A stretch of DNA of 64,000 nt. Origin: Aliiroseovarius sp. S1339. Lineage in GTDB: Bacteria; Pseudomonadota; Alphaproteobacteria; Rhodobacterales; Rhodobacteraceae. Each line of letters starts with the position of its first letter. Positions within the stretch are counted from its first letter, which is position 1. The stretch spans positions 186,001-250,000 of the forward strand of contig NZ_JALPQG010000001.1 in NCBI RefSeq assembly GCF_023195695.1, given 5' to 3'. Below the pieces are notes generated by a model. That model made no database searches. It was not told the DNA's origin and worked only from the letters and a program-made list of their open reading frames with translations. Shown here in pieces: positions 1,330 through 19,605 of the stretch. Made by a program: the position numbers and the translations under genes.

Positions 1330-3948
1330 TTAGTTTTTGGCGGAGCCAAGATACTCAGGAAGCTTCACAGGCCACTCGCTCATGAGGATCAAAGTACATG
1401 CAACAGTTTCGCCGCTGTCAGTGATCAGTTCCAACTCTCCACTTGGCTGGGTTTGATCCCATGCGAAGTTGTCGGACAGAACGGATAGAACCTCCCGCTT
1501 GTAGGCAGTGTCCGCATTGTCGAGTTGATCGCCCTTGGTTTCCAAAACAGTCAACCGCCGGTTCCCGTCACCTTTCGTCGCCGCGAAAATGAAGTCGGGG
1601 AAGATGCGGTTGCGTTTCCATCCTTGCAAGCCGTACTGCGCCTTTGCAACATTGCGATGCCACCACACGAGGGCGTCATCCGCGTCCAGATAGACCGCCA
1701 CGTCCCGTTCATCGCCGTTAAGTTCGGCTTGATAGACGGGTGCAAACAGGCTCTTCTCAAGCGCCCCTCCACCGCTTCCCAGAACTTGGTTGGCGTTCAG
1801 CGGCTCCGAAGTGTCCATTTCGAACGGCATAATCCAATTGCGCCCGTCGATACGCAGCCGAAACTGAATGCGCCCGTCAGCCACAGCTTTCTTGAAATAC
1901 GCCTCCGACAGTGCATTACGCTCCGCGTCCAAAGCCTTGCGCGCTTCTTCCACAATCATCGCTGCAAGCGAGCCGATCTTCTCCGGTGTAAATCCGCGAG
2001 CCTCAAGCGCCGCAACCAAATCGGCAATGACCTTTCGGCAAACGAATGGATTGGGAACAAGGTCCGACAGTATCCGAACGGCGAAAGAAGGGTCAAAATC
2101 AGATGTGGCGATGCTTCGTGACACACGCCGCGCTTCAATGGGCGTCTCGCCGTCACTCAATTCAATGCGCTGAACCTGCGCCTCCGCCGCTTGGGCGTTC
2201 TCTGGTATCTTCGCGGCCAACGCAACTGCGTCAAAGCCGGACCAGTCGATTTCCGCCAATATGTCGGTTTCATAGTCGAGGTCTCGCACCTCGTCTCCGT
2301 CCACAAACAGAACCTTCGGCAGATAGATATCTGTCTTCGCAAACTTCTCGCGTCTGGGCAGTTGACGCACCTTTCGTTCACTTCCCGGTGCGTCTGAACC
2401 GCTGACATGAAGCACCAGATCGCCAAGCCCGTCTTTTTCCAAACCGTCTTTGATCGCCTTGACCACGTCACCGGTCGTCGGGTGGTGCGCAATGACATAG
2501 CCTTCGTCCAGCGCGTCCACGCCAGTCTTCAAGGCGTGCGGCTGGCGTAGAATGCGTCCTACAAGTTGCGTCATGGCGTTCAGGTTGGAACTTGCCGCCA
2601 GTGAGCACAGGACATAAGCGAAAGGGCAATCCCATCCCTCTTGCAGCGCCTGCTTTGTGATGATCACGCGCACCCGGTTGTGCGGCGAAAGAAGGTCTAA
2701 GTTCTCAGGCTGGTTCAGATCATTCTGTTCCGCCGTCTTGATCGCAATTTCAGCTTCATCCAACCCGGCGTTCAATAGCCAATCGCGAACGTCTTGCGCA
2801 TGGATGAAGCCGGACTCACGTTGATCCGCACCGGTGCGTTCAACCTGTACCAACATGATTGGCCTAATGTAGCGCCCACTTTCCGCGTGATAGACCGCCG
2901 CTTCCGCTTGCAACTGGTTCAACTTGGTCAACGAAGCGTTCAGCGGCGTATGCCAATCCGCCCCCGGCTTCGTCTCAAGGTTCAAAGGCATCTTGATCAT
3001 GCCTTCGCGGTCAATCTCGCGCCCGGTCACCTCAACCAAGAGGTTCGCATAACGCGCAGGGCGTGGAGCCGCCCCACCGCGTTCGCGCACGTCAATCGGC
3101 GTGGCGGACAGTTCAATCACGATGGATGGGTTGAAGTCGTAGAGCGTCTTGAAAGCGAGGTCAGAGATTGCCTTCTGACCTTCGTCAAGAATCACAACGG
3201 GCCGGATGATCCGGAGTGCGTTTCCCAGCGAGTCCTTGATCATCGCCCACGCGGCCATGCCGTCGCCTTGGTCATAGATCGAGAGGTTCGGTATCGTCGC
3301 TACCAGCGCCTCATGCGCGGCCTGATCCCCTTCGGGTGGCGTGAAGCCATGCACGTCGCCACGGTCCCGGAACATCTTCAAACTGTCCTGCGTCTCGCGG
3401 TTAGCTGATTGCAGCATCAGGACCATGATGCAGAGGTTCTCTTCCACGTCCCGCACGTCCAGCCGGTCAGTCTTTTCAAGAATGCGCACCCGTCCCGCCG
3501 CCGCCCGGTCCAGTGTCTGGCGATAAGGGTGTTGCCTGTTCTTCAAACTTTTGAGCGTCTGGGTGTAAATGGCGTCGTTAGGCACGATCCACAAAACGAA
3601 ACCTGTGTTCTGGCTCAGATAGCGCCCCAAGACACGCGATACAGCGTTTGCGGCAATGAACGTTTTGCCCCCGGCAGTTGGCACTTTGAATGTCACGTTC
3701 GGAACGGGGCGCTCACAGCCGTCAAAGCGCTCTGAGAACGGGATTGCGGCGCGGGAATGGGGCAGCTTGCCTGCCGCCTTCATGTCCTCCCAAGCCTTCT
3801 TGGCAAAGTCCTGAGGCGCAACGTCAAGATCAGGGTCCGCAGCCAGCAAGGCTGCAACTTTGTCGGCCTTGGTCTTCCGGTCTTTCAATACATCCAAATA
3901 GGCGTTGAAAGTGTCGAGTACCCGCGTCTGGTATTCAAGCTCCCGCAT
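1330..3948 (-). CDS. res: Type III restriction enzyme, Res (helicase-nuclease) subunit
   Basis: An 872-residue ATP-dependent restriction subunit. It has an SF2 helicase core with Walker A PTAGGKT near residue 90, the DEAD-box-like motif II LDEGQ near 253, motif III SATP near 279 and a motif VI-type stretch QLVGRILRQP. A C-terminal PD-(D/E)xK nuclease shows PDFIF near 781 and ETKG near 802. With the Mod partner it would cut DNA away from unmodified asymmetric sites. Its start codon overlaps the stop of mod in a TGATG junction, so the two are translationally coupled. Length and all motifs are intact, so the gene is probably active. Confidence 0.93.
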   Translation of the reverse strand: MRELEYQTRVLDTFNAYLDVLKDRKTKADKVAALLAADPDLDVAPQDFAKKAWEDMKAAGKLPHSRAAIPFSERFDGCERPVPNVTFKVPTAGGKTFIAANAVSRVLGRYLSQNTGFVLWIVPNDAIYTQTLKSLKNRQHPYRQTLDRAAAGRVRILEKTDRLDVRDVEENLCIMVLMLQSANRETQDSLKMFRDRGDVHGFTPPEGDQAAHEALVATIPNLSIYDQGDGMAAWAMIKDSLGNALRIIRPVVILDEGQKAISDLAFKTLYDFNPSIVIELSATPIDVRERGGAAPRPARYANLLVEVTGREIDREGMIKMPLNLETKPGADWHTPLNASLTKLNQLQAEAAVYHAESGRYIRPIMLVQVERTGADQRESGFIHAQDVRDWLLNAGLDEAEIAIKTAEQNDLNQPENLDLLSPHNRVRVIITKQALQEGWDCPFAYVLCSLAASSNLNAMTQLVGRILRQPHALKTGVDALDEGYVIAHHPTTGDVVKAIKDGLEKDGLGDLVLHVSGSDAPGSERKVRQLPRREKFAKTDIYLPKVLFVDGDEVRDLDYETDILAEIDWSGFDAVALAAKIPENAQAAEAQVQRIELSDGETPIEARRVSRSIATSDFDPSFAVRILSDLVPNPFVCRKVIADLVAALEARGFTPEKIGSLAAMIVEEARKALDAERNALSEAYFKKAVADGRIQFRLRIDGRNWIMPFEMDTSEPLNANQVLGSGGGALEKSLFAPVYQAELNGDERDVAVYLDADDALVWWHRNVAKAQYGLQGWKRNRIFPDFIFAATKGDGNRRLTVLETKGDQLDNADTAYKREVLSVLSDNFAWDQTQPSGELELITDSGETVACTLILMSEWPVKLPEYLGSAKN

Positions 3949-5663
3949 CAGTCCCGCTCAACCCGGTAGAGTGCAAAGGGCAGCGGCGCGAATTCGACTT
4001 GCAGCCTCTCGTCATTCAACAGCTTCTGACTAACAAAGCGCGCCGGTGCGAAAACAAGATGCGGCTTATCGGGTTTCGCGCCTGCGATCTCGCGGGCGAA
4101 GGACAAAGTCAACGCCGCTTCTTGAGATTTCAGCCAATCCAGATCGTCTTGGTAGATCAGCCAAACGTGGAGGTCTTCGCTTTCACCCAGATATCTTGCT
4201 TCCTGATCTACTCCACTCGGGTCAAGCGGGTGGTTGGTCGCCATGTGAAACAGAAGCGCTCCAAGCTGATCGTAAGCAGGTAGGTTCTGGCCGGTCAGGA
4301 TAGTGTCCATTTCGATTGCGTCGCCAAGGGTACAGTAGGTGAATTTAGCATCGTACCCATTCTTCAATTCATCTGACTGCGCACTTTTGACACCATTGAT
4401 CACACGACGGACCCGTTCGCTTGTGAGGTCTTCGGCGTATTCTTCCATTTCGACCAAGACAAATCGCCGATTGCCCTCGTCGGCTTGATTTAGTTTCAAC
4501 ACAGAATGCGCGGTTGTTCCCGATCCGGCAAAACTGTCTAGGACTATGGCGTTTGGGGTGGCAACAAAGGACAGTAACTGATCAACGAGTTGGGTTGGCT
4601 TCGGGTGGTCAAATGCTTTCTTCTGGTCCGGGAAAATTTCGCGCAATTCGTACGCAGCCACGCGCCCATCTAGTTCGATGACGCTCGGTAGTTTGGATAA
4701 ATAATCTTTGGCATAGACCTTCAATTCAATGATCTTAGTGTGATCCTCACCAAACAGTATTTTTTCCGCTTTCAATAGGTCTTTCATCGTTTCCTCAGGG
4801 AAGCGGTAACCCATCAAAGGTTCTTTGCATGGTTGGCCCGAGTTGGGGTGTATTACGTCGTATCGGTAGCCTTCCTTGCCGGGGTTATGCACACTTTGGC
4901 TGCCTGTATAGACCCCGCCGTGGTCGATGTATTTGTAGCGATCCAACGGCCATAGCTCCTTCTTGTGTTCGCGGAACCAAGAAGTGTAAGCCGCCTGCAA
5001 TTCGTCGTTATCCTTGAATTTCTCAGAAAGGTCATCGCCAACCTCGATAAGAATGTCCTTTACGTCTGAAAGGCGCGACTTCCAAACCTTCTCCACATTC
5101 TCTTTCTGCTTAGCAAAGCAAACAATGTATTCGTGCTCGATAGCGATGCGCGTCGGATTGTTATCCGTGACGTTTTTCCAAACAATTGTCCCGATCCAAT
5201 TGTCAGTATTGCCAGAAATCTCGTCGAGCATCATCCGTAGGCGATAGAGTTCATTATCATCAATGCAGACAAGCATTACGCCATCGTCTGCCAACAAATC
5301 AAAGAGCAGTTTCAGCCTAGGCCACATCATTGCACACCACTTGTCGTGGCGAAGGCCGTCATCAATCCCAATGGGATTGGAGTCCAGCCATTCCTTGATC
5401 ATCGGGGCGTTGACGTTGTCGTTGTAGGCCCAACCCTCGTTGCCAGTGTTGTAGGGTGGGTCGATGAAGATGCAGTCCACCTTGCCCGCATACATGGGCA
5501 TGAGCGCTTTCAGCGCCTTGAGGTTGTCCCCTTGGATGATCAGGTTGCCGTCAAAGGCAACGTCGCCGATCCCCTTCTCAGGATGCGGCACCAACGGGTG
5601 GAACGGCACCGAAAGATGGTGGTTGTAGACGAACTCTTTGCCCTTGAAACTCAACTCGGTCAT
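3948..5663 (-). CDS. mod: Type III restriction-modification methyltransferase, Mod subunit
   Basis: A 571-residue DNA N6-adenine methyltransferase of the beta class. The catalytic DPPYNTG motif (D68) comes before the AdoMet-binding FAGSGTT motif near residue 377, which is the order typical of type III Mod proteins. The region between them (about 150-330) is the variable target-recognition part. I chose ATG 5663 because AAGGGG lies about 7 bases upstream; an in-frame ATG at 5687 is possible. The product methylates the recognition site and forms the complex with Res. The 203 bases upstream are a divergent promoter region shared with the DUF262 gene. Confidence 0.92.
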   Translation of the reverse strand: MTELSFKGKEFVYNHHLSVPFHPLVPHPEKGIGDVAFDGNLIIQGDNLKALKALMPMYAGKVDCIFIDPPYNTGNEGWAYNDNVNAPMIKEWLDSNPIGIDDGLRHDKWCAMMWPRLKLLFDLLADDGVMLVCIDDNELYRLRMMLDEISGNTDNWIGTIVWKNVTDNNPTRIAIEHEYIVCFAKQKENVEKVWKSRLSDVKDILIEVGDDLSEKFKDNDELQAAYTSWFREHKKELWPLDRYKYIDHGGVYTGSQSVHNPGKEGYRYDVIHPNSGQPCKEPLMGYRFPEETMKDLLKAEKILFGEDHTKIIELKVYAKDYLSKLPSVIELDGRVAAYELREIFPDQKKAFDHPKPTQLVDQLLSFVATPNAIVLDSFAGSGTTAHSVLKLNQADEGNRRFVLVEMEEYAEDLTSERVRRVINGVKSAQSDELKNGYDAKFTYCTLGDAIEMDTILTGQNLPAYDQLGALLFHMATNHPLDPSGVDQEARYLGESEDLHVWLIYQDDLDWLKSQEAALTLSFAREIAGAKPDKPHLVFAPARFVSQKLLNDERLQVEFAPLPFALYRVERD

Positions 5664-5866
5664 GCACTGCCCCTTACTGTTTTCCATCTGTCTACACGAC
5701 CGACGAACGCGCCGCCAGATTCGTAATCGCCAACACCTTGGGTTTCCATCAGGTTTCCGCCCTCCCGTATCGATTGCACGTTGAAGACCGATGTTGCGAC
5801 GCGTTAGGGTGTTTCAAATCCCAACGAAGACGCTAACAGCGCCCCAGTGTTCCCGAGGTTTCGAGC

Positions 5867-8119
5867 ATGAGCAAGACTGTCTACAAGAAGATTGACTACG
5901 ATCTGTCCGGCCTGATCTCGGACATCAAGATTGGTGACATTGCCCTACCAGAATTGCAGCGCCCGTTTGTTTGGAAAAACGCCAAAGTACGCAACTTGTT
6001 CGACTCCATGTATCGTGGCTTCCCCGTCGGATTCTTCCTTTTCTGGGAACCGTCCGTTGTCGAAGGCGCTCGGACAATTGGAACCGACGGCAAACAGAAG
6101 ACGCCACGCCTCTTGGTCGTTGACGGGCAACAGCGACTGACTTCGCTCTACGCCGTCATGACCGGCACGCCAGTTATTCGTGAAGGGTATGACGCTGAGC
6201 GGATCGAAATCAGCTTCAATCCGCTGCAAGAGAAATTCGAAGTGGCCGACGCCACGACGCACAATAACCGCCAATTCCTACCCAATATTTCTGTGATCTG
6301 GGACAAGAAAGCGGATTTCGATGATGTTAAGGACGAGTATTTTGCGCGTCTAGCCGAGGTTCAAGAGCTTTCCGATGAAGATCGCAAAAAAGCGCGTTCT
6401 GCTTTGAACCGGTTAGAAAAGTTGAGCACCTATCCGTTCACTGCTTTGGAACTAACAGCCAACGTCAACGAAGAACAAGTTTCCGAGGTTTTCGTTCGAA
6501 TAAACTCCGAGGGAAAGAAGCTCAATCAGGCAGACTTTATTCTGACGCTCATGTCCGTCTTTTGGGATGAAGGACGGGCCGAACTTGAAAAGTTCTGTCG
6601 TGATGCACGCCTGCCTTCAACCTCAACTGCGTCACCCTTTAACTACCTGATGCAGCCCGATCCCGACCAACTCTTACGTGTTTCGGTCGGAGTCGCTTTC
6701 CGGCGCGCGAGATTGCAGTACGTGTATTCAATCCTGCGTGGCAAGGATTTGGAAACCGAAGAATTTAGCGACGAGCGGCGAGAAGAACAGTTTTCTAAGC
6801 TCAAGGATGCGCAATCACGCGTCCTGAATCTTCAATACTGGCATGACTTTCTGAAAGCAATTCGGTTTGCTGGCTACAAGAGCCATAAAATGATCAGTTC
6901 GCAGAACGCCGTATTGTTTGCGTACATCCTTTACTTGCTCGGTCGGACAGAACTGAAATTCGAAGAGCCAGAGCTTCGCCGCTTGATTGCAAAGTGGTTT
7001 TTTGTAACCGGGATGACCGGTCGCTTTACCAGTTCGCCAGAATCTAAGATGGAAGCTGATCTCGCCAAGCTGCGCGAAGTTGAAAACAAGGAACAGTTCA
7101 AAACCGTGCTCGACCAGATTTGTGGTGCAATCACAACAAATGACTACTGGAAAATCACGCTGCCCACTGAACTTGCGACGTCGTCGGCCCGAAGTCCGTC
7201 GATGTTCGCCTATTTCGCATCACTGACAATTCTTGACGCAAACGTGCTGTTCTCTGAACAGAAGGTTGCGGAATTGCTCGATACATCCACCAAAGAGCCA
7301 CGTTCACCAATTGAGCGCCATCATTTGTTTCCACGCGCCTACCTCGACTCAATAGGACGGCAGACCACGACACAGAAGAACCAAATCGCAAATTATGCTC
7401 TCGTAGAATGGGGCGACAACAACAAAATCAGTGACGCCCCCCCTGCCGACTACCTGCCTGATTTTGAAAGCCGCTTTTCAAAGAAGGACTTGGAGCGGAT
7501 GTATTATTGGCACGCTCTGCCAGATGGATGGCCCGAAATGATCTATGAAGATTTCCTTCGTGAACGTCGAGAGAAGATTGCCGCCGTTGTTCAAGACGCA
7601 TTCTCCCGCTTCGAGAAAGGGACAATGGGACAGGCCGCCGAGGATTCGAGGGATATTGCAGAGCTGATAGCCGAAGGTGAAAACGGAACGACGGAATTCA
7701 AGTCCACGCTACGTCGAAACATGCACACGGGCGACAATGATGTAAGGATGGAGAATTCTGTCCTCAAAACTATCGTCGGTTTTCTCAACTCCAAAGGTGG
7801 CGGGACCCTGATTGTGGGCGTGAAGGACGACGGCGAGGCGCTCGGCATTGAAACGGACTCGTTCAAGAATGAAGACCAAATGTACCTTCACATGAACAAC
7901 CTGATCAAAGATCGAATTGGAGCCAAACACATGCTCTACATCCATCCGCATTTCGACGAGTATGACGACAAGCGAGTGCTTGTCGTCGAGTGCCAACCCG
8001 CACGATCACCCGTTTACTTGAAGGATGGAAACGAAGAGAGATTCTACATCCGTTCTGTGGCTGCAACAGTAGAGTTGAAGGGCGGGCAGGCTCAGGACTA
8101 TATCGCTCAACGCTTTTAG
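5867..8119 (+). CDS. DUF262 / HNH (DUF1524-like) / AlbA_2 fusion, probable defence nuclease
   Basis: A 750-residue three-part protein. An N-terminal DUF262 domain has LPELQRPFVW at residues 27-36 and DGQQRLTSL at 86-94, the ParB-like nucleotide-hydrolysing core of GmrS-type proteins. A DUF1524/HNH-like nuclease follows, with ERHHLFPRAYL near 482 and the NYALVEWGDNNK stretch behind it. A Schlafen AlbA_2 domain sits at about 600-745, with TEFKST near 610 and GGGTLIVGVKDDG near 644. DUF262-DUF1524 proteins of the GmrSD family cut modified phage DNA; AlbA_2 binds nucleic acid or nucleotide. It is divergent from the type III pair and probably part of the same defence cargo. The start has GAGG about 9 bases upstream. 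Function is inferred from domains only. Confidence 0.82.
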   Translation: MSKTVYKKIDYDLSGLISDIKIGDIALPELQRPFVWKNAKVRNLFDSMYRGFPVGFFLFWEPSVVEGARTIGTDGKQKTPRLLVVDGQQRLTSLYAVMTGTPVIREGYDAERIEISFNPLQEKFEVADATTHNNRQFLPNISVIWDKKADFDDVKDEYFARLAEVQELSDEDRKKARSALNRLEKLSTYPFTALELTANVNEEQVSEVFVRINSEGKKLNQADFILTLMSVFWDEGRAELEKFCRDARLPSTSTASPFNYLMQPDPDQLLRVSVGVAFRRARLQYVYSILRGKDLETEEFSDERREEQFSKLKDAQSRVLNLQYWHDFLKAIRFAGYKSHKMISSQNAVLFAYILYLLGRTELKFEEPELRRLIAKWFFVTGMTGRFTSSPESKMEADLAKLREVENKEQFKTVLDQICGAITTNDYWKITLPTELATSSARSPSMFAYFASLTILDANVLFSEQKVAELLDTSTKEPRSPIERHHLFPRAYLDSIGRQTTTQKNQIANYALVEWGDNNKISDAPPADYLPDFESRFSKKDLERMYYWHALPDGWPEMIYEDFLRERREKIAAVVQDAFSRFEKGTMGQAAEDSRDIAELIAEGENGTTEFKSTLRRNMHTGDNDVRMENSVLKTIVGFLNSKGGGTLIVGVKDDGEALGIETDSFKNEDQMYLHMNNLIKDRIGAKHMLYIHPHFDEYDDKRVLVVECQPARSPVYLKDGNEERFYIRSVAATVELKGGQAQDYIAQRF

Positions 8120-8317: not shown

Positions 8318-9931
8318 ATGGCGGTACATGAAGAACTGGCAAAGACAACTGGACGTTCAGCCGTTGCTGTAGTGTTGATCATGATCTTCATCGTTCTCTG
8401 CATATTCTCCTTCAACAGCATTGCAGGGATAAAAAGACAGCTCTCAGAGGACATATTTGAATTTTCAAAGTTTGCCCCCGGCGTGATATCGCGTACCCAA
8501 GCATTCGATGACAAAGTCCCTTTTGCCACCTGCGTTCTAGCAAGCAACATCTTCTTTTGGGATTCAGATTCGTTTCCGCATTGGGAGAATTTCTCTCGCG
8601 CAAGCTACTTTGATCGAAATGGTGATATCGAAATCCGATTTTCTTTCATGGACCAAAGAGCACGCGGAGAATGCCAAGCAAGCCTTTTCAGTCATCCCGG
8701 TTGGAATGACATTAATGAAATTGATCCAAGTAATCATCTTCGGGAAATTATCCGAGCACTAAACACTGTAAATTCTGAATCGCTCTTTGATGAATCCATT
8801 TCTTCGCAACAGTTAGGTGAGCGCTATGCAACCGCACTGAAAGAAATCGGAATGGAAATCGGCGACATCAGGTCATCACATTTCGAATGGAAAGCTGAGA
8901 CGATCATCTCAATGCTTAGAAGGGGCGAGGAAAGTCACACGGCTATAGCCAACTGGATTGTGTATGAAACCTCTCCATTCTCTGGCGTTTCCGGCTCTGG
9001 CGTGGGTGACTTTGAACTGGCAAACGACGACGACATCGCTCAAAAAATTGACGAATTTCTATTTCGTCAGAGCATCCTGTCGTTGTTTTATGAAACACTC
9101 CCAGATTTGCCCCGCCAAGCAGACATTTGGTCCGTCGCGAACACTCACGCACGAGCGGTTCTTGAGCCGAGTGTGGCCGATTCAAATTTACGCTTGCCAT
9201 TTCTTGGCGTAGGAATTTCATACCGGGATTTTCTAATGGTGTCAGGTGTTGTTCTTGTTTTTTTCCTCTCAATGTTTGGCTCCGTTCAGATTGAGTTTGG
9301 AAACCATCAACGTACACTACTACAACGAGAGCGGTTGGTTGTATTCCCACGTTTGACTTCGCGAAAGAATCCTCTTGAGTTGAATTTTTCATCTGGGTCC
9401 GATTCAATGGCGCGTATGGTATGGGCAGCTTTTCTTGTTGCACCGATATGCATTTTGTCCTTTGCGACATTGTTCAGGTATGACGCATCAAGTGTCGCTC
9501 GAATATCGAACTCTGCGTCCTACTATTTCTCTCGCTATCAAGGTTTAGGTGCTACAATTTTTGATCTTGTGAACTTTCTTAGTTTGCTGATTACTTTTTT
9601 TATTGTCAGAGCGCTTGTTCGCGGCCGATCTCATTTGGAAGATGGAATCGGGTCGAGATTTAGAGGAGTCATATTTTTTGGTAATTTCACTTTTTTAGTA
9701 ATTATTTTATCCAAGCCGCTAATTGACACTCACTCAAAGTACTTTGAGAACTATGCGGGTGATCCAAATCATTGGCAGGATCTATTTTACGGACCAAGGA
9801 TATACGTATTTTCAGCGTACGCTTTGATCTGGCTATTATTTTGCTTAAAGAGATTCTCGGGGAGCGCAAGTGAGTTCTTTCTCGTGTCTGGGGTGGTAAT
9901 CAATGGAGCAATTGCCGTAAGCTTAATGTGA
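8318..9931 (+). CDS. Unrecognised membrane protein of the island
   Basis: A 537-residue protein I cannot assign to a family. One transmembrane segment at about 13-33 is followed by a long soluble part (about 35-300). Six more hydrophobic segments come near 303-325, 368-388, 411-431, 449-466, 488-507 and 518-536. The soluble part is probably outside the cytoplasm, since the short N-terminus carries little positive charge while KR follows the first segment; the topology is uncertain. Base composition is clearly AT-richer than the genes on both sides, pointing to a separate origin. It lies 198 bases after the DUF262 fusion on the same strand. The N-terminal segment, large domain and membrane bundle would fit an effector or sensor of a defence system, but that is a guess. 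Confidence 0.75.
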   Translation: MAVHEELAKTTGRSAVAVVLIMIFIVLCIFSFNSIAGIKRQLSEDIFEFSKFAPGVISRTQAFDDKVPFATCVLASNIFFWDSDSFPHWENFSRASYFDRNGDIEIRFSFMDQRARGECQASLFSHPGWNDINEIDPSNHLREIIRALNTVNSESLFDESISSQQLGERYATALKEIGMEIGDIRSSHFEWKAETIISMLRRGEESHTAIANWIVYETSPFSGVSGSGVGDFELANDDDIAQKIDEFLFRQSILSLFYETLPDLPRQADIWSVANTHARAVLEPSVADSNLRLPFLGVGISYRDFLMVSGVVLVFFLSMFGSVQIEFGNHQRTLLQRERLVVFPRLTSRKNPLELNFSSGSDSMARMVWAAFLVAPICILSFATLFRYDASSVARISNSASYYFSRYQGLGATIFDLVNFLSLLITFFIVRALVRGRSHLEDGIGSRFRGVIFFGNFTFLVIILSKPLIDTHSKYFENYAGDPNHWQDLFYGPRIYVFSAYALIWLLFCLKRFSGSASEFFLVSGVVINGAIAVSLM

Positions 9932-10355: not shown

Positions 10356-11051
10356 TCAAGCGGGCTTGTAGACACCTGCCCGTGCCAGCATTTGACGGAC
10401 ACTGTTATGGTTATAGACGTTTCCGTTTGGTGCGCAGTGACCCATTTCTGAGAGAACTTCGGCGATTTGGCGAAGGGTGCGACGCTTGCCTGTTTTTGGT
10501 GATTTGCGGTAGAGGCGTTTCGCTACTTGAATGGTCGCGTCAGCGACAGGTTTTCTGCCTTCCACCCTTCTGCCTAGAGCTGCGCTCTTCCGGTCACGTG
10601 CAGCTTTCAGCTTCTCTACGGTCTGACGACGGTCGAAGGCGTTCACTGCCCCCAAAATAGTCCGCACAAGCTCTGTCGTCGGTGTATCGACGGTGAAGTA
10701 ATCAGGCGCAGTTGTCGGAATCAGGTCAACGCCACGTTCCTTCAACATGCGGTGGCCAAGTTCCTGTACCACAGCATCACGTGCAAAGCGGTCCGGCGAC
10801 TCGACCAGAATGGTCCTCGTCCCATTGGCAAGGACTGCATCCAAGAGAGCGAGCATGCCGTCCCGTTGGTCGATAGGGTCAGTGCCGGACACCGCCGCGT
10901 CATAGAACGTGTCAACTACGTCATAGCCATTGGCAGCCGCATAGGCTTCAATGGCAGCGCGCTGGCGGGTGTCTGAGTCCTTGTCCACACCTACGTTTGT
11001 GGCACTTGAAGTCCTCATATACGCGAACGCTGCAATATTCTCCTGATGCAT
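10356..11051 (-). CDS. Serine recombinase (resolvase/invertase family)
   Basis: A 231-residue protein with an N-terminal resolvase catalytic domain. The motif AYMRTSS places the nucleophile at about Ser15; the arginine-containing ESPDRFARD stretch and the long helix following DRRQTVEKLKAARDRK are typical. The C-terminal 60 residues (RTLRQIAEVLSEMG ... NSVRQMLARAG) form a helix-turn-helix for site binding. A GGAGGA ribosome site precedes the ATG. The size fits a small resolvase rather than a large phage integrase. It may resolve multimers of the excised element or invert a segment; no pair of inverted crossover sites was recognised nearby. Confidence 0.88.
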   Translation of the reverse strand: MHQENIAAFAYMRTSSATNVGVDKDSDTRQRAAIEAYAAANGYDVVDTFYDAAVSGTDPIDQRDGMLALLDAVLANGTRTILVESPDRFARDAVVQELGHRMLKERGVDLIPTTAPDYFTVDTPTTELVRTILGAVNAFDRRQTVEKLKAARDRKSAALGRRVEGRKPVADATIQVAKRLYRKSPKTGKRRTLRQIAEVLSEMGHCAPNGNVYNHNSVRQMLARAGVYKPA

Positions 11052-11984
11052 TACCTATATCCTCCATACACTTAATCGACTCATCTGGTACTTTTCTCAA
11101 GTAATGTACCAAATTTTGAGCGGTGTGTCTGGCCCCTATTGTGGAAACAATCGCTTATTTGTGGGTTGGACAGTATGCTCTGAGCGTTTCTGGCATGGGA
11201 ATGAATGATGGCGGATACGCGTCGGGTGCTGAAAAGCAATCAGACATCATGTCGGGCGGATTTTTTGGCAGACCGACGGGGTTTTGAGAACGGGAATTTG
11301 GCTAGACGGATTTCTCGCAAGTGAAAGAGGGTGTAGGTGCACTACTCAAAGTGGAGAAACGTCAGTTCGGCGGAATTCTTGGTCAGCGGGATTTCCTTTG
11401 CGATTGGTGAAGCGGAGTCGATTGTGCCTCGACAACGACGAAATTGCTTCTTGCTATGACTGTTTCAAGAAAAATGATAATCACGCAATAAAATCTTGTT
11501 TGCGTCATGAGCGGCCCCTGCGGAGGCAGTTTGACAATCGTGTGTCATGCCAGCGATGGCCGGCGATGGTTGGATGTTGAGAGAAAACCCCCTGATTTCA
11601 ACGCCGCGATGGGAACGATGGGAGCGATGGCTGCCTGTAACGGTTTGGGTGTGGATGTGAGTTCCGATGATGTCGGAGAGGTTAGAGTTCAAGAATATTT
11701 CTATGCACTTTCCATCGCTCCCATCGTTCCCATCGCAGCATTGATTCAAAGGGAATTTTTTTGGAACCGTCGCCATCGACTTGCCATCTCTTGCCATCGC
11801 TGGCGATCCTAGCGGCGCTACATCCGGTTCAGAAACTGTTGACGACGCGAGACTACTAGATGACCGCTGCGAGCCCCTGCGGCCATGCCAGAAAACACTT
11901 ACAAAGCGTTGCTTTTGTCTTGATCTTACTTGAAGATCGTCCCGCAATCTCCTGTCAAGAATTGCACATAAGGAGGATAGCGCG
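11052..11984. other. Long non-coding region upstream of the replication genes
   Basis: 933 bases without a convincing gene. The first 500 bases show nothing I recognise. The second half contains the symmetric CGATGG array listed separately. Reading frames that cross this part are built from the repeats and lack good ribosome sites. Confidence 0.65.
11554..11799. repeat. Mirror-arranged CGATGG iteron array with a perfect 25-bp inverted repeat
   Basis: Five CGATGG motifs on the left (at 11554, 11564, 11607, 11616 and 11625) all point one way. Five complementary CCATCG motifs on the right (at 11712, 11721, 11730, 11773 and 11794) all point the other way, with a degenerate sixth at 11784. The inner three on each side are spaced exactly 9 bp and form a perfect 25-bp inverted repeat, 11606-11630 with 11712-11736, separated by 81 bp. 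Spacings of 9-11 bp put the motifs on about one helical face. Iterons next to a primase/helicase gene are typical of replication origins of P4-like and PICI-like elements, so an origin is the best guess; a large cruciform operator is the alternative. Confidence 0.85.
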
Positions 11985-12584
11985 TTGTCGATAAGTGGCC
12001 TGTCAAGACTACTGACTCATCTTGTTGACCGAAATGATCGTGCGGATGAAGACACCGCAGACTTATTGGACCACATGGCTAAGCTGTCCTCGCATATTTG
12101 CGAGGTTTGGAAAGCCAATATCGATGCACTAGAAATTCTCTCGCTTGAAGCGGATGGGCATAGAAAAAGAAGAGACAACGTGCCGTTCAAAGAGTTGTTG
12201 GCGACCAAAGACTTGTCACTAATCAAAATGGCTCAAGCACGACGAGCAAACGGCGCGGAAGTGTATGAATTCATAGAAATTGAAAAGACATTCGAAACTA
12301 ACCCTGACGCAACCGGTCGTACTTCCATTAGATCCAGCGCATCGACTGAGCAGATTGAAAAAATTAGGCGATCTGCTCGATCAATATACAGAAAGCGGGA
12401 GGACTTCCGGCGTGAGTTTGATGAAATATTTGATGATATCTCAGAAGAAAGTTTCGAAGATTTTGTTGCAAGACTTGATGATACAGATGTTTCTGTACTT
12501 CGAAAGAAACATGACAGAATGCAAAGGCAAGCGTCGAAGATCGCGGCAACAAGCAGGAAGTACCGTGCGAGCATCCGGAACTAA
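11985..12584 (+). CDS. Small helical, charged protein of unknown function
   Basis: A 199-residue protein that appears entirely alpha-helical, with many Glu, Asp, Arg and Lys residues, a likely coiled coil in the last 80 residues and no cysteine cluster or membrane segment. I do not recognise a family. The start is TTG, chosen because a perfect AAGGAGG lies 8 bases upstream. It sits between the repeat array and the convergent primase gene, so a role in replication or control of the element is possible. Confidence 0.7.
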   Translation: MSISGLSRLLTHLVDRNDRADEDTADLLDHMAKLSSHICEVWKANIDALEILSLEADGHRKRRDNVPFKELLATKDLSLIKMAQARRANGAEVYEFIEIEKTFETNPDATGRTSIRSSASTEQIEKIRRSARSIYRKREDFRREFDEIFDDISEESFEDFVARLDDTDVSVLRKKHDRMQRQASKIAATSRKYRASIRN

Positions 12585-12632: not shown

Positions 12633-15596
12633 TCAGACACCAAATTCCTTCCGTTTTATCCTCATGTTTTTGGTGGTTCGCCCGACACCATCACTAACGG
12701 ACGCAACGAATTCGGGAAGGTTTGTGTAGGGAATGTTACTTGCAGAACTCCGGTCAAGCGCTTCAATGTCCGCCAGCGCGTTGCACAAGGCAGCGCGCTT
12801 TCCAAAACTGCCGGGGATTTGTAGCGTTTCCAGTTGCTTCCAGTCCAAATAAATTGTGTCGGGTGTGTACCACCCTATGACACGCCCGCGTGCATCATGA
12901 TTATCCGGCGTGATCCCCTGTACTCGATCATCCTTATCCGGCGCGCAGGCGGCAAGGATGGTTCGGTCCATCTCACTACCAATCCAAGATCGGAACGAGT
13001 CCAACATCGACTCAGATCCATTTGCGGTCGCAGCTTCATCCGACTTCAAAAACGACTCCCAGCAAAGAAGAACGCCGCGCCTGACGGCACTCAGTTCATC
13101 TAGCAAGCCTGCCTCAAAAGCCAGTTCACCAGCCCTCTGAGCAAGCGCAAATGGTCGCGCTGCACGTCTTATCCCCGGCGTCCTGCCATCTGCCAACGTA
13201 TCGACAATTGTCTGCACCTCTTTTGCAAGGTTTGAATTGTCTCGATCCATGAGATGATGAATGAAATCCTCCCCGGCATATCCGTAGTTTTGTTGGACAG
13301 CCTCAATCTTTGCAATCTCGGCTGTCGTTCGGTCCCTGCCGCTCCCAACATCAACGTCCGGGAAGCGTACTGCCATACCGCCGCGATACGGGACGCCAGC
13401 AGCTTCAATTTCAGCCTTGATGTTCGACTCAGAAGAGAACACCACAAAGGGCCGAAATTCGGAAGTGCGGGTAAGACCCGGTCCGTTACCACGCTTACGC
13501 GCTTTTCCACGCCCGGTGTGAATAACAAAGATCAATGGTGCAAGCTGGCGTTTGTCAGTGATAGCCCCAAGTTCATCCATCATTAGGCACGTACCACTGC
13601 CATAAATCGCCAAATCCTCGTAGGCATTAGGAGTAGAGCTTGCGGTCCAGAACACGCCTTTACCGTCCTGTGGCGTCGTCCAGATGGATGCGGCCACCGT
13701 CTGCCCCAGCGATTTCCCCTTTGACGTGCCACCGCTTAGTACGAAGCCAACTGGATTCCATTCGAGCATGTCTAGCAGTGGTCCGGCGAAGCCCGCACAA
13801 AGCGTCAATGCCCAATATGGATTGTCTTCAACGTGGGAGAGGGCAGCGTTAGCTGCACCCTGCCAGCCTTCAAGAGTGCCTTTCTTGTTGATCACCTTGA
13901 CCGTTGCATCCTCATGCAAGCGCACAGCATCGCCTCCAATGCAGTGACCGGTTGGCATCATGAATCCTTCGCCGTGCCATCCGGGCTTATGGAGCGTTGG
14001 AACCAATCGCTTTGGGGTCATGCGACGAAGCAAGTTCAACAGGCGATCATTTGCCTTTTGTGTCCCCGCCTCCATCGGCAAACCTGCGTCCGCCAACTTA
14101 CGCAGCACATCCGGTCCATTCGCATACAGGCTGGCGCGATCAAGTGTTAGTTCGGTCCGGATACCGTTTTCGTTCTCGAACGAAATTATCCGCCCCGCGC
14201 CTTCGGTCCCGCTCGAGTCTGCTGTCCGCCCGACAACGTCAAACACGCCACAAACAGGGATGCTTGCGATTTCATCCCCATTAGCTTCTTGGAAGAAGAT
14301 CATGTCAGTCCCGAGTACGTACCCTTTCGGCATCCAGTCTTCTGCCGCCTCGAACTGAACTTTGTCTGTGAGCTCTCGCACCTGCCGTGCTGCGATGAAT
14401 TCTCTCGCCTGTTCTATCCGGCCTGTCAGGTAGTCGTCATCAAACATGTATCGGTCTTTTCTTGCCTGATCATCTTTCATTTCGGTGGCGGCAATTGTCG
14501 CTCGCAGAATGTCGAAGATGTCATCGCCGTTGGCGTCTGACCCATGCTCCGAAAAGAAGCTACAAGCTGCGCTGTAGATGGGAGCATCAAAGCCACGCTG
14601 GCCCTCACCATCTCCGATGGTTTCAAGGTGAGCCTCAAAACCAATCGCATTGACGCCCTGACGGGCGCTGGCACTACTCTTCCGCTTTCCTGTCTTGGCC
14701 TTGCCCTTGGTTTTCGAGACCTCTTCGCCGCGCCCCTTAGTCGCCTCGAATGAAAGCTTCACCAGCCAATCGGGCGCATCTGCAACGCTGCATTCCCACG
14801 GCGCGCGACCGTCATCCCAGCGATAAAATTTGCCGTTTGGGTGGATGGATGGAGGGGCGATGATCTGCCCATTGCTACCCCGGATATCAACACCGGGCGC
14901 GATTGAAGACGCCGTGTTGCGAATGTCTGCACCGTTCGCACGAAAGATCAGGTGATAGCCGCCGCTGCCGGTGATGGACTCCCACGTTACTGGAAGTGCG
15001 CCGTGCTCAGCTTCCATTTCTGCCAGAGCCGCTTTGCCCGCATCGCCGTCAATGTCCATCACGAACAAGTCGCAGTCGGGCGGGAATGAAATAGAGACGT
15101 TCCGATAAGCTGGCGGCGGAGCGAATGGGTAGACACTGCCATTCTTGTCGGCAGGGTAGTTACCGTCGCCGGTCCAGAAAGATGTAATTTCGGCGTGGTC
15201 AACGCTTGCGCGTGCCTGCCATTTCGTGCCGCGAGGAATCTTGACCTGACCGCCGGGTCCAGTGCCAACGCCAGCCGTGCCCAGTGCATGTGAATCTATG
15301 ACATGAAGCCCTTCATCGGCGTAGGCCAGCGCCGCCGCAAGAGTCAGGACATTGTGGTTTGGAAAGCTGTTGCTAACGTCTGACAATACCCTTGCAGCTT
15401 TATGGGCATACTTGGCAGGCAACCGTTGCCTGAGATCGTCTCGGGCCATCGTCGCTGCGGACGTGAGATACGGATTCTTTCGGTTGTTCAATCTTTCAAA
15501 GAGATCTGCCGCATGCGTGCGTTCAAGCATGTCGACTACGTTGTCACTGCGATCATCGGCAGTTATTCGATCTGCAGTCTTGTTCAAAGTCGTCAT
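12633..15596 (-). CDS. Primase-polymerase / DUF927 helicase-like replication protein
   Basis: A 987-residue replication protein. The N-terminal third is a bifunctional primase-polymerase (prim-pol) domain: the acidic pair in FVMDIDGD near residue 179, the GSGGYHLIF stretch, and the PPSIHPNGKFYRW motif typical of the family. The C-terminal half is a DUF927 ATPase with Walker A GGTSKGKS near 622 and Walker B CLMMDELG near 667, followed by an arginine-rich sensor region. Such two-domain proteins prime and unwind DNA for phages, satellites and integrative plasmids, comparable in logic to P4 alpha or PICI Pri-Rep proteins. It is convergent with the 199-residue gene and about 0.8 kb from the repeat array that may be its origin. 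Confidence 0.88.
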   Translation of the reverse strand: MTTLNKTADRITADDRSDNVVDMLERTHAADLFERLNNRKNPYLTSAATMARDDLRQRLPAKYAHKAARVLSDVSNSFPNHNVLTLAAALAYADEGLHVIDSHALGTAGVGTGPGGQVKIPRGTKWQARASVDHAEITSFWTGDGNYPADKNGSVYPFAPPPAYRNVSISFPPDCDLFVMDIDGDAGKAALAEMEAEHGALPVTWESITGSGGYHLIFRANGADIRNTASSIAPGVDIRGSNGQIIAPPSIHPNGKFYRWDDGRAPWECSVADAPDWLVKLSFEATKGRGEEVSKTKGKAKTGKRKSSASARQGVNAIGFEAHLETIGDGEGQRGFDAPIYSAACSFFSEHGSDANGDDIFDILRATIAATEMKDDQARKDRYMFDDDYLTGRIEQAREFIAARQVRELTDKVQFEAAEDWMPKGYVLGTDMIFFQEANGDEIASIPVCGVFDVVGRTADSSGTEGAGRIISFENENGIRTELTLDRASLYANGPDVLRKLADAGLPMEAGTQKANDRLLNLLRRMTPKRLVPTLHKPGWHGEGFMMPTGHCIGGDAVRLHEDATVKVINKKGTLEGWQGAANAALSHVEDNPYWALTLCAGFAGPLLDMLEWNPVGFVLSGGTSKGKSLGQTVAASIWTTPQDGKGVFWTASSTPNAYEDLAIYGSGTCLMMDELGAITDKRQLAPLIFVIHTGRGKARKRGNGPGLTRTSEFRPFVVFSSESNIKAEIEAAGVPYRGGMAVRFPDVDVGSGRDRTTAEIAKIEAVQQNYGYAGEDFIHHLMDRDNSNLAKEVQTIVDTLADGRTPGIRRAARPFALAQRAGELAFEAGLLDELSAVRRGVLLCWESFLKSDEAATANGSESMLDSFRSWIGSEMDRTILAACAPDKDDRVQGITPDNHDARGRVIGWYTPDTIYLDWKQLETLQIPGSFGKRAALCNALADIEALDRSSASNIPYTNLPEFVASVSDGVGRTTKNMRIKRKEFGV

Positions 15597-17398: not shown

Positions 17399-17828
17399 AC
17401 TCAGAAATCTTCTTCTGAACGTAGTCTTCGACACGATCAGCCAGTGATCCGTCCCGATCCCATTGAAGCAGAGTCACTTTTTTGACGCTCTCCATGAATT
17501 CGGCGGTCAACCGCGCACGCAACTGGCGGTCGTTGCTCGCAAGGTTCAATTGACTGATTTCATCATTTTCGACGGCGCGGCGGGCAATGGATGCCCACTG
17601 CGCACGGTCGCTCGGATCAACTTCCGTCGTATCGCCGGTTACAATGAAATGGAAAACACTTGGGTTCTGACGTAGATCGGCACAAAGACCTTTGACTGTG
17701 ATCTCAGACAATCGATTGCCAAACTCTGATGCCAAAGCCAGTTCCAAGGCAGACTCACATTTTTCAAGACGCGCTTCCTCGTGCGATTTCAGATGGGATG
17801 CGATGATTTCGTTCTCGTAAAAGGTCAT
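17385..17828 (-). CDS. Hypothetical protein of the island
   Basis: A 147-residue, mostly helical acidic protein from ATG 17828, which overlaps the stop of the HTH gene in an ATGA junction. It has an internal hydrophobic patch (PSVFHFIVTGD) but no membrane segment. No family recognised. Tight coupling on both sides places it in one operon with the HTH, TerS-like and CxxC genes. Confidence 0.62.
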   Translation of the reverse strand: MTFYENEIIASHLKSHEEARLEKCESALELALASEFGNRLSEITVKGLCADLRQNPSVFHFIVTGDTTEVDPSDRAQWASIARRAVENDEISQLNLASNDRQLRARLTAEFMESVKKVTLLQWDRDGSLADRVEDYVQKKISEYARR

Positions 17829-18043
17829 TGGGTTCGTTTTTCCTTGTCGACTTGGAGAAGCCTGAGTTCCACTTGTTCGTCGCGTCCGCGTTCGCGAAGC
17901 CGTGCGAGCACAGTTGCTACTGGGAAGTGTTTCCGTCCTGCACAGTACGCGAACGGAAGCTGACGCCCTCTCAGTAAACGCCATACAGTTTGGCGAGAGA
18001 GGGAAGCAGCACTGCATATATCGGCGATGGCGATTGTGAACAT
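17825..18043 (-). CDS. Excisionase/AlpA-like HTH protein
   Basis: A 72-residue winged-helix protein of the MerR/HTH_17 (excisionase, AlpA) type: IADICSAASLSRQTVWRLL is the helix-turn-helix and the HFPVATVLARLRER part follows as in AlpA-like proteins. It begins the leftward operon and is divergent from the integrase 174 bases away. This is the normal place for a directionality factor or element regulator in PICI and P4-like elements. It could control both excision and the leftward promoter. Confidence 0.75.
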   Translation of the reverse strand: MFTIAIADICSAASLSRQTVWRLLRGRQLPFAYCAGRKHFPVATVLARLRERGRDEQVELRLLQVDKEKRTQ

Positions 18044-18216
18044 TATTCGTGAAACATGTGGGCTTTGATAACCTCAAATGTAACCGAAAAACGTTAGCAA
18101 AACCTTAAGGTTTCTATGATGGGCGACGATTCGCGTGGCGACACTATTTCGCCAGAATCTCTTGGCAAAGTCGCCCGCGATGCCCAAGAAGACGACCAAT
18201 TGATTGCGAGGTGAAC

Positions 18217-19491
18217 ATGGCCAAGATTGTCAAACTCCGACCCACTCCTAAAGGCGAACCTCGGTATGGGGTGCGATGGAAAGACGAAACTGGCAAAGAG
18301 CGCCAAGCGAGCTTTTCTACGAGACGTGAAGCTCAATTGTTCCGGTCACAAAAAGAGGTCGAATTCCCTCGTCAACGCAAGAATCTCAAGCGCAATCGTA
18401 TTGACGATCCGAGTTTCGCAATTATTGCTGTGGCTTACATATCAAGCCTTAAAAATCCAGAGCCCGGCGAAGACCCTTTGGAGCCAGTCACTATTCGCGG
18501 CTATAAATCAGTCTTGCAAGAGCATGTATTCCCAGTTGTCGCGAGAAAACGCCCCTCCAATATCGATGGAGATGACTACAAGATAATCTACAAGCGTTGT
18601 GTGAAATTGGGGATGTCAACACGGACACGAGCGGAAGCGTTGCGCCTTTTGAAGGCGACACTCACCTTCGCCAAAGACGCTGGATATATCGATTTCGTGC
18701 CAGACAACCCGATAAAGAAAAAGAAGACTAGGAAAGAAGAAGCGGAAGAACAGGACGCCGCTGAAAAGAAATACTACACGCCTGATGAAGTCTATACGAT
18801 GTTGGTGGCGGCAGATAATCTTGCCTCAGACCCCAATAAACAGACTCGGAAAACTTGGGCGCGGTATCGCCCAATGGTCTACCTTCTTGTGTACACCGGC
18901 GCGCGCATCAGTGAAGCACGCGCTTTCCGACGGCAGGATTACGCACCAGCAGAAGGTCGCATTCATATCCGTGAGTCCGCGCCAGAGGGAACAGGCAGCT
19001 ACGAAACGAAGACCGCCGCTGGGCGACGCTGGGTGCCAATGAATCCGGAGTTGCGTGAGCCACTTGAAACTTGGTTGGATACCCATGATCGACGCTTAGT
19101 TTTTGGAACCACAACTGACAAACCGATTAGCCTGCCAACACTCTACCCCCGACTTTTGGAGGCGTTGAAAGACAGGGCTGACCTCCTTGTAGCAACCAAC
19201 GCAGACCCTCGACTTGTAACGGTTCGGCGTGATCGAAAATTTCATGCCTTCCGCCACCATTTCGCGTCGTGGCTGGTAAAAGAAGGCGCGAACCTCAAGC
19301 AGCTTCAGCGCTACATGGGGCATTCCAAAGCGTCCTTTACTCTCGATGTTTACGGACATCTTTTTGAAGATGATGGACAGGAACTTGTGGCACGCATGAG
19401 CATGAAAGCCACCGAAACTCGAAATGGCACATTGCCCGCTGGACAGCAAATCTGGGAAATGTCAAACCTTGAAAAGGTGAATAGCGGGTGA
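18217..19491 (+). CDS. int: Tyrosine integrase
   Basis: A 424-residue site-specific recombinase. An N-terminal arm-binding domain (residues 1-60), a SAM-like core-binding domain (about 65-160) and the catalytic domain are complete. The active-site residues are visible: R230 in TGARISEAR, H343 and R346 in HAFRHHF, H369 in YMGHS and nucleophile Y379 in LDVYGHLF. The ATG at 18217 is preferred over GTG 18211 because of the GAGG before it. The stop is 69 bases from the attR core, so this enzyme is the one that recombines the 45-bp repeats. Confidence 0.94.
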   Translation: MAKIVKLRPTPKGEPRYGVRWKDETGKERQASFSTRREAQLFRSQKEVEFPRQRKNLKRNRIDDPSFAIIAVAYISSLKNPEPGEDPLEPVTIRGYKSVLQEHVFPVVARKRPSNIDGDDYKIIYKRCVKLGMSTRTRAEALRLLKATLTFAKDAGYIDFVPDNPIKKKKTRKEEAEEQDAAEKKYYTPDEVYTMLVAADNLASDPNKQTRKTWARYRPMVYLLVYTGARISEARAFRRQDYAPAEGRIHIRESAPEGTGSYETKTAAGRRWVPMNPELREPLETWLDTHDRRLVFGTTTDKPISLPTLYPRLLEALKDRADLLVATNADPRLVTVRRDRKFHAFRHHFASWLVKEGANLKQLQRYMGHSKASFTLDVYGHLFEDDGQELVARMSMKATETRNGTLPAGQQIWEMSNLEKVNSG

Positions 19492-19560: not shown

Positions 19561-19605
19561 CTGTTAATCAATTGGTCGTAGGTTCGATCCCTACCGCCGG
19601 AGCCA
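19561..19605 (+). repeat. attR: 45-bp direct repeat of tRNA-Asn 3' end
   Basis: An exact copy of 1054-1098 that starts within the anticodon loop, so it is not a functional tRNA. It marks the right end of the island and the original junction of the tRNA with downstream DNA. The decayed integrase begins 95 bases further on. Confidence 0.93.

Follow-up and report, generated by a model that had tools for sequence, protein, structure and literature searches.

The window analysed here, a stretch of 64,000 nucleotides from the alphaproteobacterium Aliiroseovarius sp. S1339, contains an 18.5-kb integrative element at tRNA-Asn. The element is bounded by the tRNA-Asn gene (1024-1098), whose 3' end is the left att repeat (1054-1098), and by a 45-bp copy with 45 identical bases that forms the right att repeat (19561-19605). 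Its tyrosine integrase is encoded on the plus strand (18211-19491; phrog_1, E=1.4e-56), and a 72-residue ORF on the minus strand (17825-18043), without a family match, looks AlpA/excisionase-like from a reading of its sequence. Beside the tRNA gene lies defence cargo (1330-8119), comprising type III restriction (1330-3948) and modification (3948-5687) genes and a GmrSD_N/Schlafen AlbA_2 fusion gene (5867-8119) that PADLOC finds HEC-05-like. A 537-residue ORF at 8318-9931 has no Pfam, PHROG or PADLOC match.

The element shares with phage-inducible chromosomal islands (PICIs) its site-specific integration, with an integrase and flanking att repeats. No repressor was identified in it, the AlpA-like ORF being seen by eye only, and a PHROG scan of ten ORFs, covering only part of the small ones, found no terS, capsid morphogenesis or interference gene. 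terS is missing from some PICIs. We do not file the element as a whole as a PICI.

Three genes surround the feature of interest. A serine resolvase (10356-11051, minus strand; PF00239) stands on one side. On the other are a 199-residue orphan protein gene (11985-12584, plus strand), which has a TTG start after AAGGAGG, and then the gene of a 987-residue primase-helicase with Prim-Pol and DUF927 domains (12633-15596, minus strand; PF09250 and PF06048), the presumed initiator. The 199-residue protein has no match in Pfam, PHROG or PADLOC, and as a candidate partner binding the array described below it was rejected, having neither relatives nor families.

A mirror-symmetric array of hexamers

Between the resolvase and the orphan gene lies a gap of 933 bp, in which CGATGG starts at 11554, 11564, 11607, 11616 and 11625 and its complement CCATCG at 11712, 11721, 11730, 11773 and 11794. 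On the plus strand, an outer left pair (11554-11569) with a 10-bp step is followed by an inner left triplet (11607-11630) in 9-bp phase; on the minus strand, an inner right triplet (11712-11735), also in 9-bp phase, is followed by an outer right set (11773-11799), which a one-mismatch copy, CCATCT at 11784, fills out. On either side, the step between outer and inner set measures 43 bp. With ten exact iterons and one near-exact, a count of six per half is only approximate. The inner triplets belong to an inverted repeat (11598-11744) with 33-nt arms (11598-11630 and 11712-11744; 94%), a perfect 25-bp core (11606-11630 and 11712-11736) and a centre of 81 bp (11631-11711), which is presumably where the strands open. 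The centre has an A+T content of 56%, the gap as a whole one of 51%.

The coordinates bear out exactly the preliminary description of five CGATGG motifs facing five CCATCG motifs across 81 bp in uniform orientation, and the site positions its 9-bp phasing of the inner triplets; the perfect 25-bp inverted repeat that it reported is present within the longer arms. Its statement that the gap holds no convincing gene also stands, as no gene there has a family match and the ORFs over the array only translate the repeats.

The array exceeds chance expectation. Its phased score is 8, where the best of 2000 dinucleotide shuffles of the gap reached 4; the motif occurs 10 times, against a mean of 0.68 and a maximum of 4 in 2000 dinucleotide shuffles; and the longest perfect inverted repeat is 25, with 19 at most in 500 shuffles of the gap. 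Within the 3.54-Mb genome, the CGATGG triplet pattern is unique to this array. An Rfam search returned a tRNA as its sole match, and GC-skew extremes in the element and in small relatives gave no clear signal for the position of an origin.

The helicase gene and its 3' flank

The 987-residue protein carries a Walker A motif GGTSKGKS (K628) and a Walker B DE (D674, E675); the motifs are conserved and the Walker residues invariant. The only proteins of solved structure related to it by sequence are SaPIbov1 Rep (8tch; E=1.8e-9 with the single sequence and 1.4e-39 with a profile) and Cch (5dgk; 5.3e-32 with a profile). Its predicted model is confident from about residue 420 onwards, though not in the N-terminal Prim-Pol part, and a fold search with this model placed SaPIbov1 Rep and Cch first, in its top four hits, and MCM helicases next. 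Judged by sequence, the protein is a homologue of these two self-loading helicases, SaPIbov1 Rep and Cch.

DUF927 loci were collected by protein similarity to the window protein or to the DUF927 profile; in the contig scan, the single 987-residue protein gave no match, and an alignment including its closest relative did. A phased iteron array was found within 1.1 kb on the 3' side of the gene in 46 of 87 loci, compared with 2 of 83 5' flanks and 17 of 474 control windows from the same loci (P=4e-29), by a phased-hexamer score designed after the first example arrays had been seen. When near-identical flanks were collapsed, 39 of 68 loci had an array and 29 had none at the threshold used. The first iteron lies a median of 38 bp past the DUF927 stop codon, and in most relatives within 4-107 bp. 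In the window the array also lies 3' of the initiator gene, but 834 bp past its stop codon and with one convergent gene between; three other loci are displaced too, by 660-920 bp. Seven similar viral contigs (L245, L248, L250, L253-L255 and L260) with a DUF927 protein of about 946 residues have no phased array on either flank; their origin must lie elsewhere or be of another kind.

These positions bear on what the array is for. It sits between divergently transcribed genes and could be a bidirectional operator or regulatory hub, through which a repressor of the element, such as the resolvase or the 199-residue protein, controls both of them; iteron origins, too, are often autoregulatory. The preliminary description had offered a cruciform operator as one possibility. 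However, the arrays of most relatives lie just past the helicase stop, whichever gene comes next, and not between divergent promoters; the gene shared among them is the DUF927 helicase, while nothing related to the 199-residue protein turned up in 298 family genomes, and outside the array the genome lacks the motif triplet. We regard the operator as improbable. The serine resolvase gene, some 500 bp from the array, brings to mind a res site or an accessory att site whose repeats the resolvase binds, and inverted motifs do occur in res sites. The 9-bp-phased hexamers, however, go with DUF927 genes and not with resolvases, and most annotated relatives have no resolvase beside the array, so that a recombination site appears very improbable.

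Several small replicons came up in the survey. The plasmids L181, L182 and L185 (Legionella plasmid III, pMNOD05 and pSR-7, with T4SS-type genes) have a PICI-like origin and no satellite annotation. An 11.2-kb Pseudomonas aeruginosa record, pHS87b (L179), has int, ogr/Delta and a P2-type capsid gene, with iterons at 7517-7672, 663 bp from its DUF927 gene; it resembles the circular form of a P2-dependent satellite.

A changing word in a recurring layout

The nearest relative, L172, whose primase is 34% identical overall and 41% in the helicase part, has a mirrored GGCGGA/TCCGCC array directly 3' of the primase gene; its arms, 90-100% complementary, face each other across a centre of about 95-107 bp. 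The expectation that a relative keeping the primase would keep the array thus holds for architecture and place and fails for the CGATGG word. A search for the 9-bp-phased CGATGG triplet covered 397 family genomes as well as viral contigs and revealed no other mirrored array, the remaining matches being mostly one-orientation, coding-like repeats; hence it is the architecture that is conserved and not the motif. Small DUF927 replicons use still other words: GGTAACA in a Salmonella 7-kb record, TGGGACA in Legionella plasmid III, GTGTGACA in Methylobacterium pMNOD05, GGGGAACA in phiAH14b, GGTACCACC in Skermanella pSR-7 and AGGGAAC in the satellite-like pHS87b. The more alike two initiators are, the more alike are their iterons (Mantel r 0.48 with the ATPase part and 0.44 with the C-terminal part, p=0.0005). 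An initiator that reads the iterons should produce such a correlation, which may also come from shared descent alone. In a same-genus relative (G003, locus L173), 13 tandem identical 9-bp units (TGGTCCGAG) lie 3' of the DUF927 gene at 11045-11218, besides a few degenerate inverted copies, in an arrangement that suggests recent expansion of an iteron array.

Neighbouring iterons on the same strand are exactly 9 bp apart in 117 of the 176 cases counted. When iterons were called by a weight matrix with no spacing preference beyond non-overlap and with a starting hexamer chosen by the phased score, modules of two or three sites, an inverted single site and then three or two sites numbered 24, in 22 of 39 arrays, and 16 of them had exactly six iterons. 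The span of a module between its flanking clusters is 52-56, 63-68 or 77-78 bp. Two modules stand in mirror image in L180, L185, L172, L231 and L241. A second form, a triplet followed by a triplet in the same orientation and then mirrored, is found in the window (43/43 bp), in L217 (67/68 bp) and in L269 (42/41 bp). Four further arrays (L265, L267, L285 and L229) have a single module that keeps the 9-bp phase, with no long mirrored repeat.

The last group is informative about a structural origin, cruciform or stem-loop, of the sort known from the Sulfolobus plasmid pRN1, whose Prim-Pol initiator reads a large stem-loop instead of iterons. Both systems have a Prim-Pol initiator with a helicase, and the essential symmetric element of pRN1, a stem-loop of 100 nt, likewise lies downstream of the Prim-Pol gene (PMC4234260). 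The strand of the window array, moreover, folds well (z = -7). Yet the helicase of pRN1 is an SF3 enzyme and iterons are absent there (PMC4234260), while the window has iterons and an MCM-like DUF927 helicase. Furthermore, phased sites persist in the four arrays without a long mirrored repeat, and L179 and L183 carry a separate TOPRIM gene, not a Prim-Pol. Since the iterons are mirrored, the strand forms a hairpin automatically; the cruciform was rejected on this ground, and we consider a stem-loop origin very improbable.

An A-tract followed by CCC also recurs, about 10-12 bp ahead of the iteron cluster, in relatives with other iterons, as found by motif search (log-likelihood 268-278, against 211-231 for shuffled gaps). 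A matrix was built from the gaps leading to iteron clusters, with the window excluded. Within the window array it finds one box in each half, placed and oriented as expected, 10 bp ahead of the left inner triplet (11579-11596, plus strand; GAGAGAAAACCCCCTGAT) and of the right one (11746-11763, minus strand; CAAAAAAATTCCCTTTGA), which rank 26 and 64 among about 128,000 positions scored. The box is weak in several arrays. As a guess, it could be an unwinding element or a host-factor site.

A candidate origin of the SaPI/PICI kind

We suggest that the array is very probably the replication origin of the 18.5-kb integrative element, of the SaPI/PICI kind (probability roughly 0.88). The preliminary description had already offered an origin as one reading, and this gains strong support from the mirrored architecture kept in L172 and from the layout that recurs 3' of DUF927 genes.

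Published descriptions of SaPI and PICI origins, with which the window was compared, provide close parallels. SaPI Rep uses its C-terminal domain to bind an iteron origin located immediately 3' of its own gene (PMC7581432), and the opposite orientations of the SaPI repeats are held to guide two hexamers into a head-to-head arrangement (PMC9894130). In PICI origins an AT-rich region is always flanked by two sets of iterons, and the origins of Gram-negative PICIs are functional, their rep-ori replicating autonomously (PMC6092414). Like the origins of SaPIbov1 (Rep-ori) and EcCICFT073 (rep-ori), the window has an initiator homologous to SaPIbov1 Rep, two opposed iteron sets around a central segment (PMC6092414, PMC9894130) and an array that comes 3' of the gene for this initiator, inside an integrative element. 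Unlike them, its motif is CGATGG, its initiator is fused to an archaeo-eukaryotic Prim-Pol, its array is set apart from the initiator gene behind an orphan gene, its centre is only modestly A+T-rich, and the outer and inner sets of each half share one orientation; the element, moreover, has no recognised phage-packaging gene and its host is alphaproteobacterial.

Other systems share single traits with the window. The P4 alpha protein has a TOPRIM primase and a different helicase, with repeats at separate ori and crr sites. The Pfam assignments of the window protein, PF09250 and PF06048, are not this combination, although P4 alpha is also a primase-helicase fusion and binds its repeats by a C-terminal domain (PMC4234260). 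SCCmec elements have a DUF927 (Cch) MCM-like helicase as the window does, and Cch2 binds direct repeats in a putative origin that immediately follows its own gene (PMC7581432); the second SCCmec pattern, which is staphylococcal, differs in having only three iterons, a helicase of the Cch2 family and a separate polymerase-primase. In the PLE satellites of Vibrio cholerae, iterons are also bound by an element-coded initiator, but this is a RepA_N protein and not a helicase, and the iterons are semi-palindromic (PMC7145576). In a full-text search of an open-access library, only PMC7581432 had DUF927 together with iteron. The earlier remark that no described origin has this motif thus stands for CGATGG and falls for the kind of origin, which SaPIs and PICIs represent (PMC7581432, PMC6092414, PMC9894130). 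The novelty lies in the word CGATGG, in the setting of an alphaproteobacterial Prim-Pol-DUF927 protein, in the displacement by 0.8 kb and in the regularity of six iterons.

With these parallels in mind, one may propose how such an origin would work. The 987-residue protein would bind the CGATGG iterons, presumably via its C-terminal domain as SaPI Rep does. Each half, an inner triplet with its outer set, would seed one hexameric ring, since some six sites per half would fit one hexamer. The mirror layout would place two rings head to head across the 81-bp centre, which would be opened between them, and the fused primase could then start bidirectional DNA synthesis on the excised circle. Iteron binding, hexamer stoichiometry, opening and bidirectionality are all inferred here.

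A broader generalisation is tentative, and we give it somewhat less than even odds. DUF927 initiators of islands, satellites and plasmids, in Proteobacteria, Desulfovibrionaceae and beyond, may share one origin grammar: 9-bp-phased modules of six sites (pair, inverted single and triplet, or triplet and triplet), one for each hexamer and mirrored for two rings, with clusters spaced in helical steps of about 43, 55, 67 and 78 bp and a six-letter word free to change with the initiator. If so, an origin with a single module would take one ring and replicate in one direction. It is this regularity across DUF927 replicons that merits follow-up. The site count and the spacing rule offer a simple way into the question of self-loading, by which an MCM-like ring helicase gets onto double-stranded DNA; the turnover of the motif supplies dozens of natural initiator-site pairs for the study of a recognition code.
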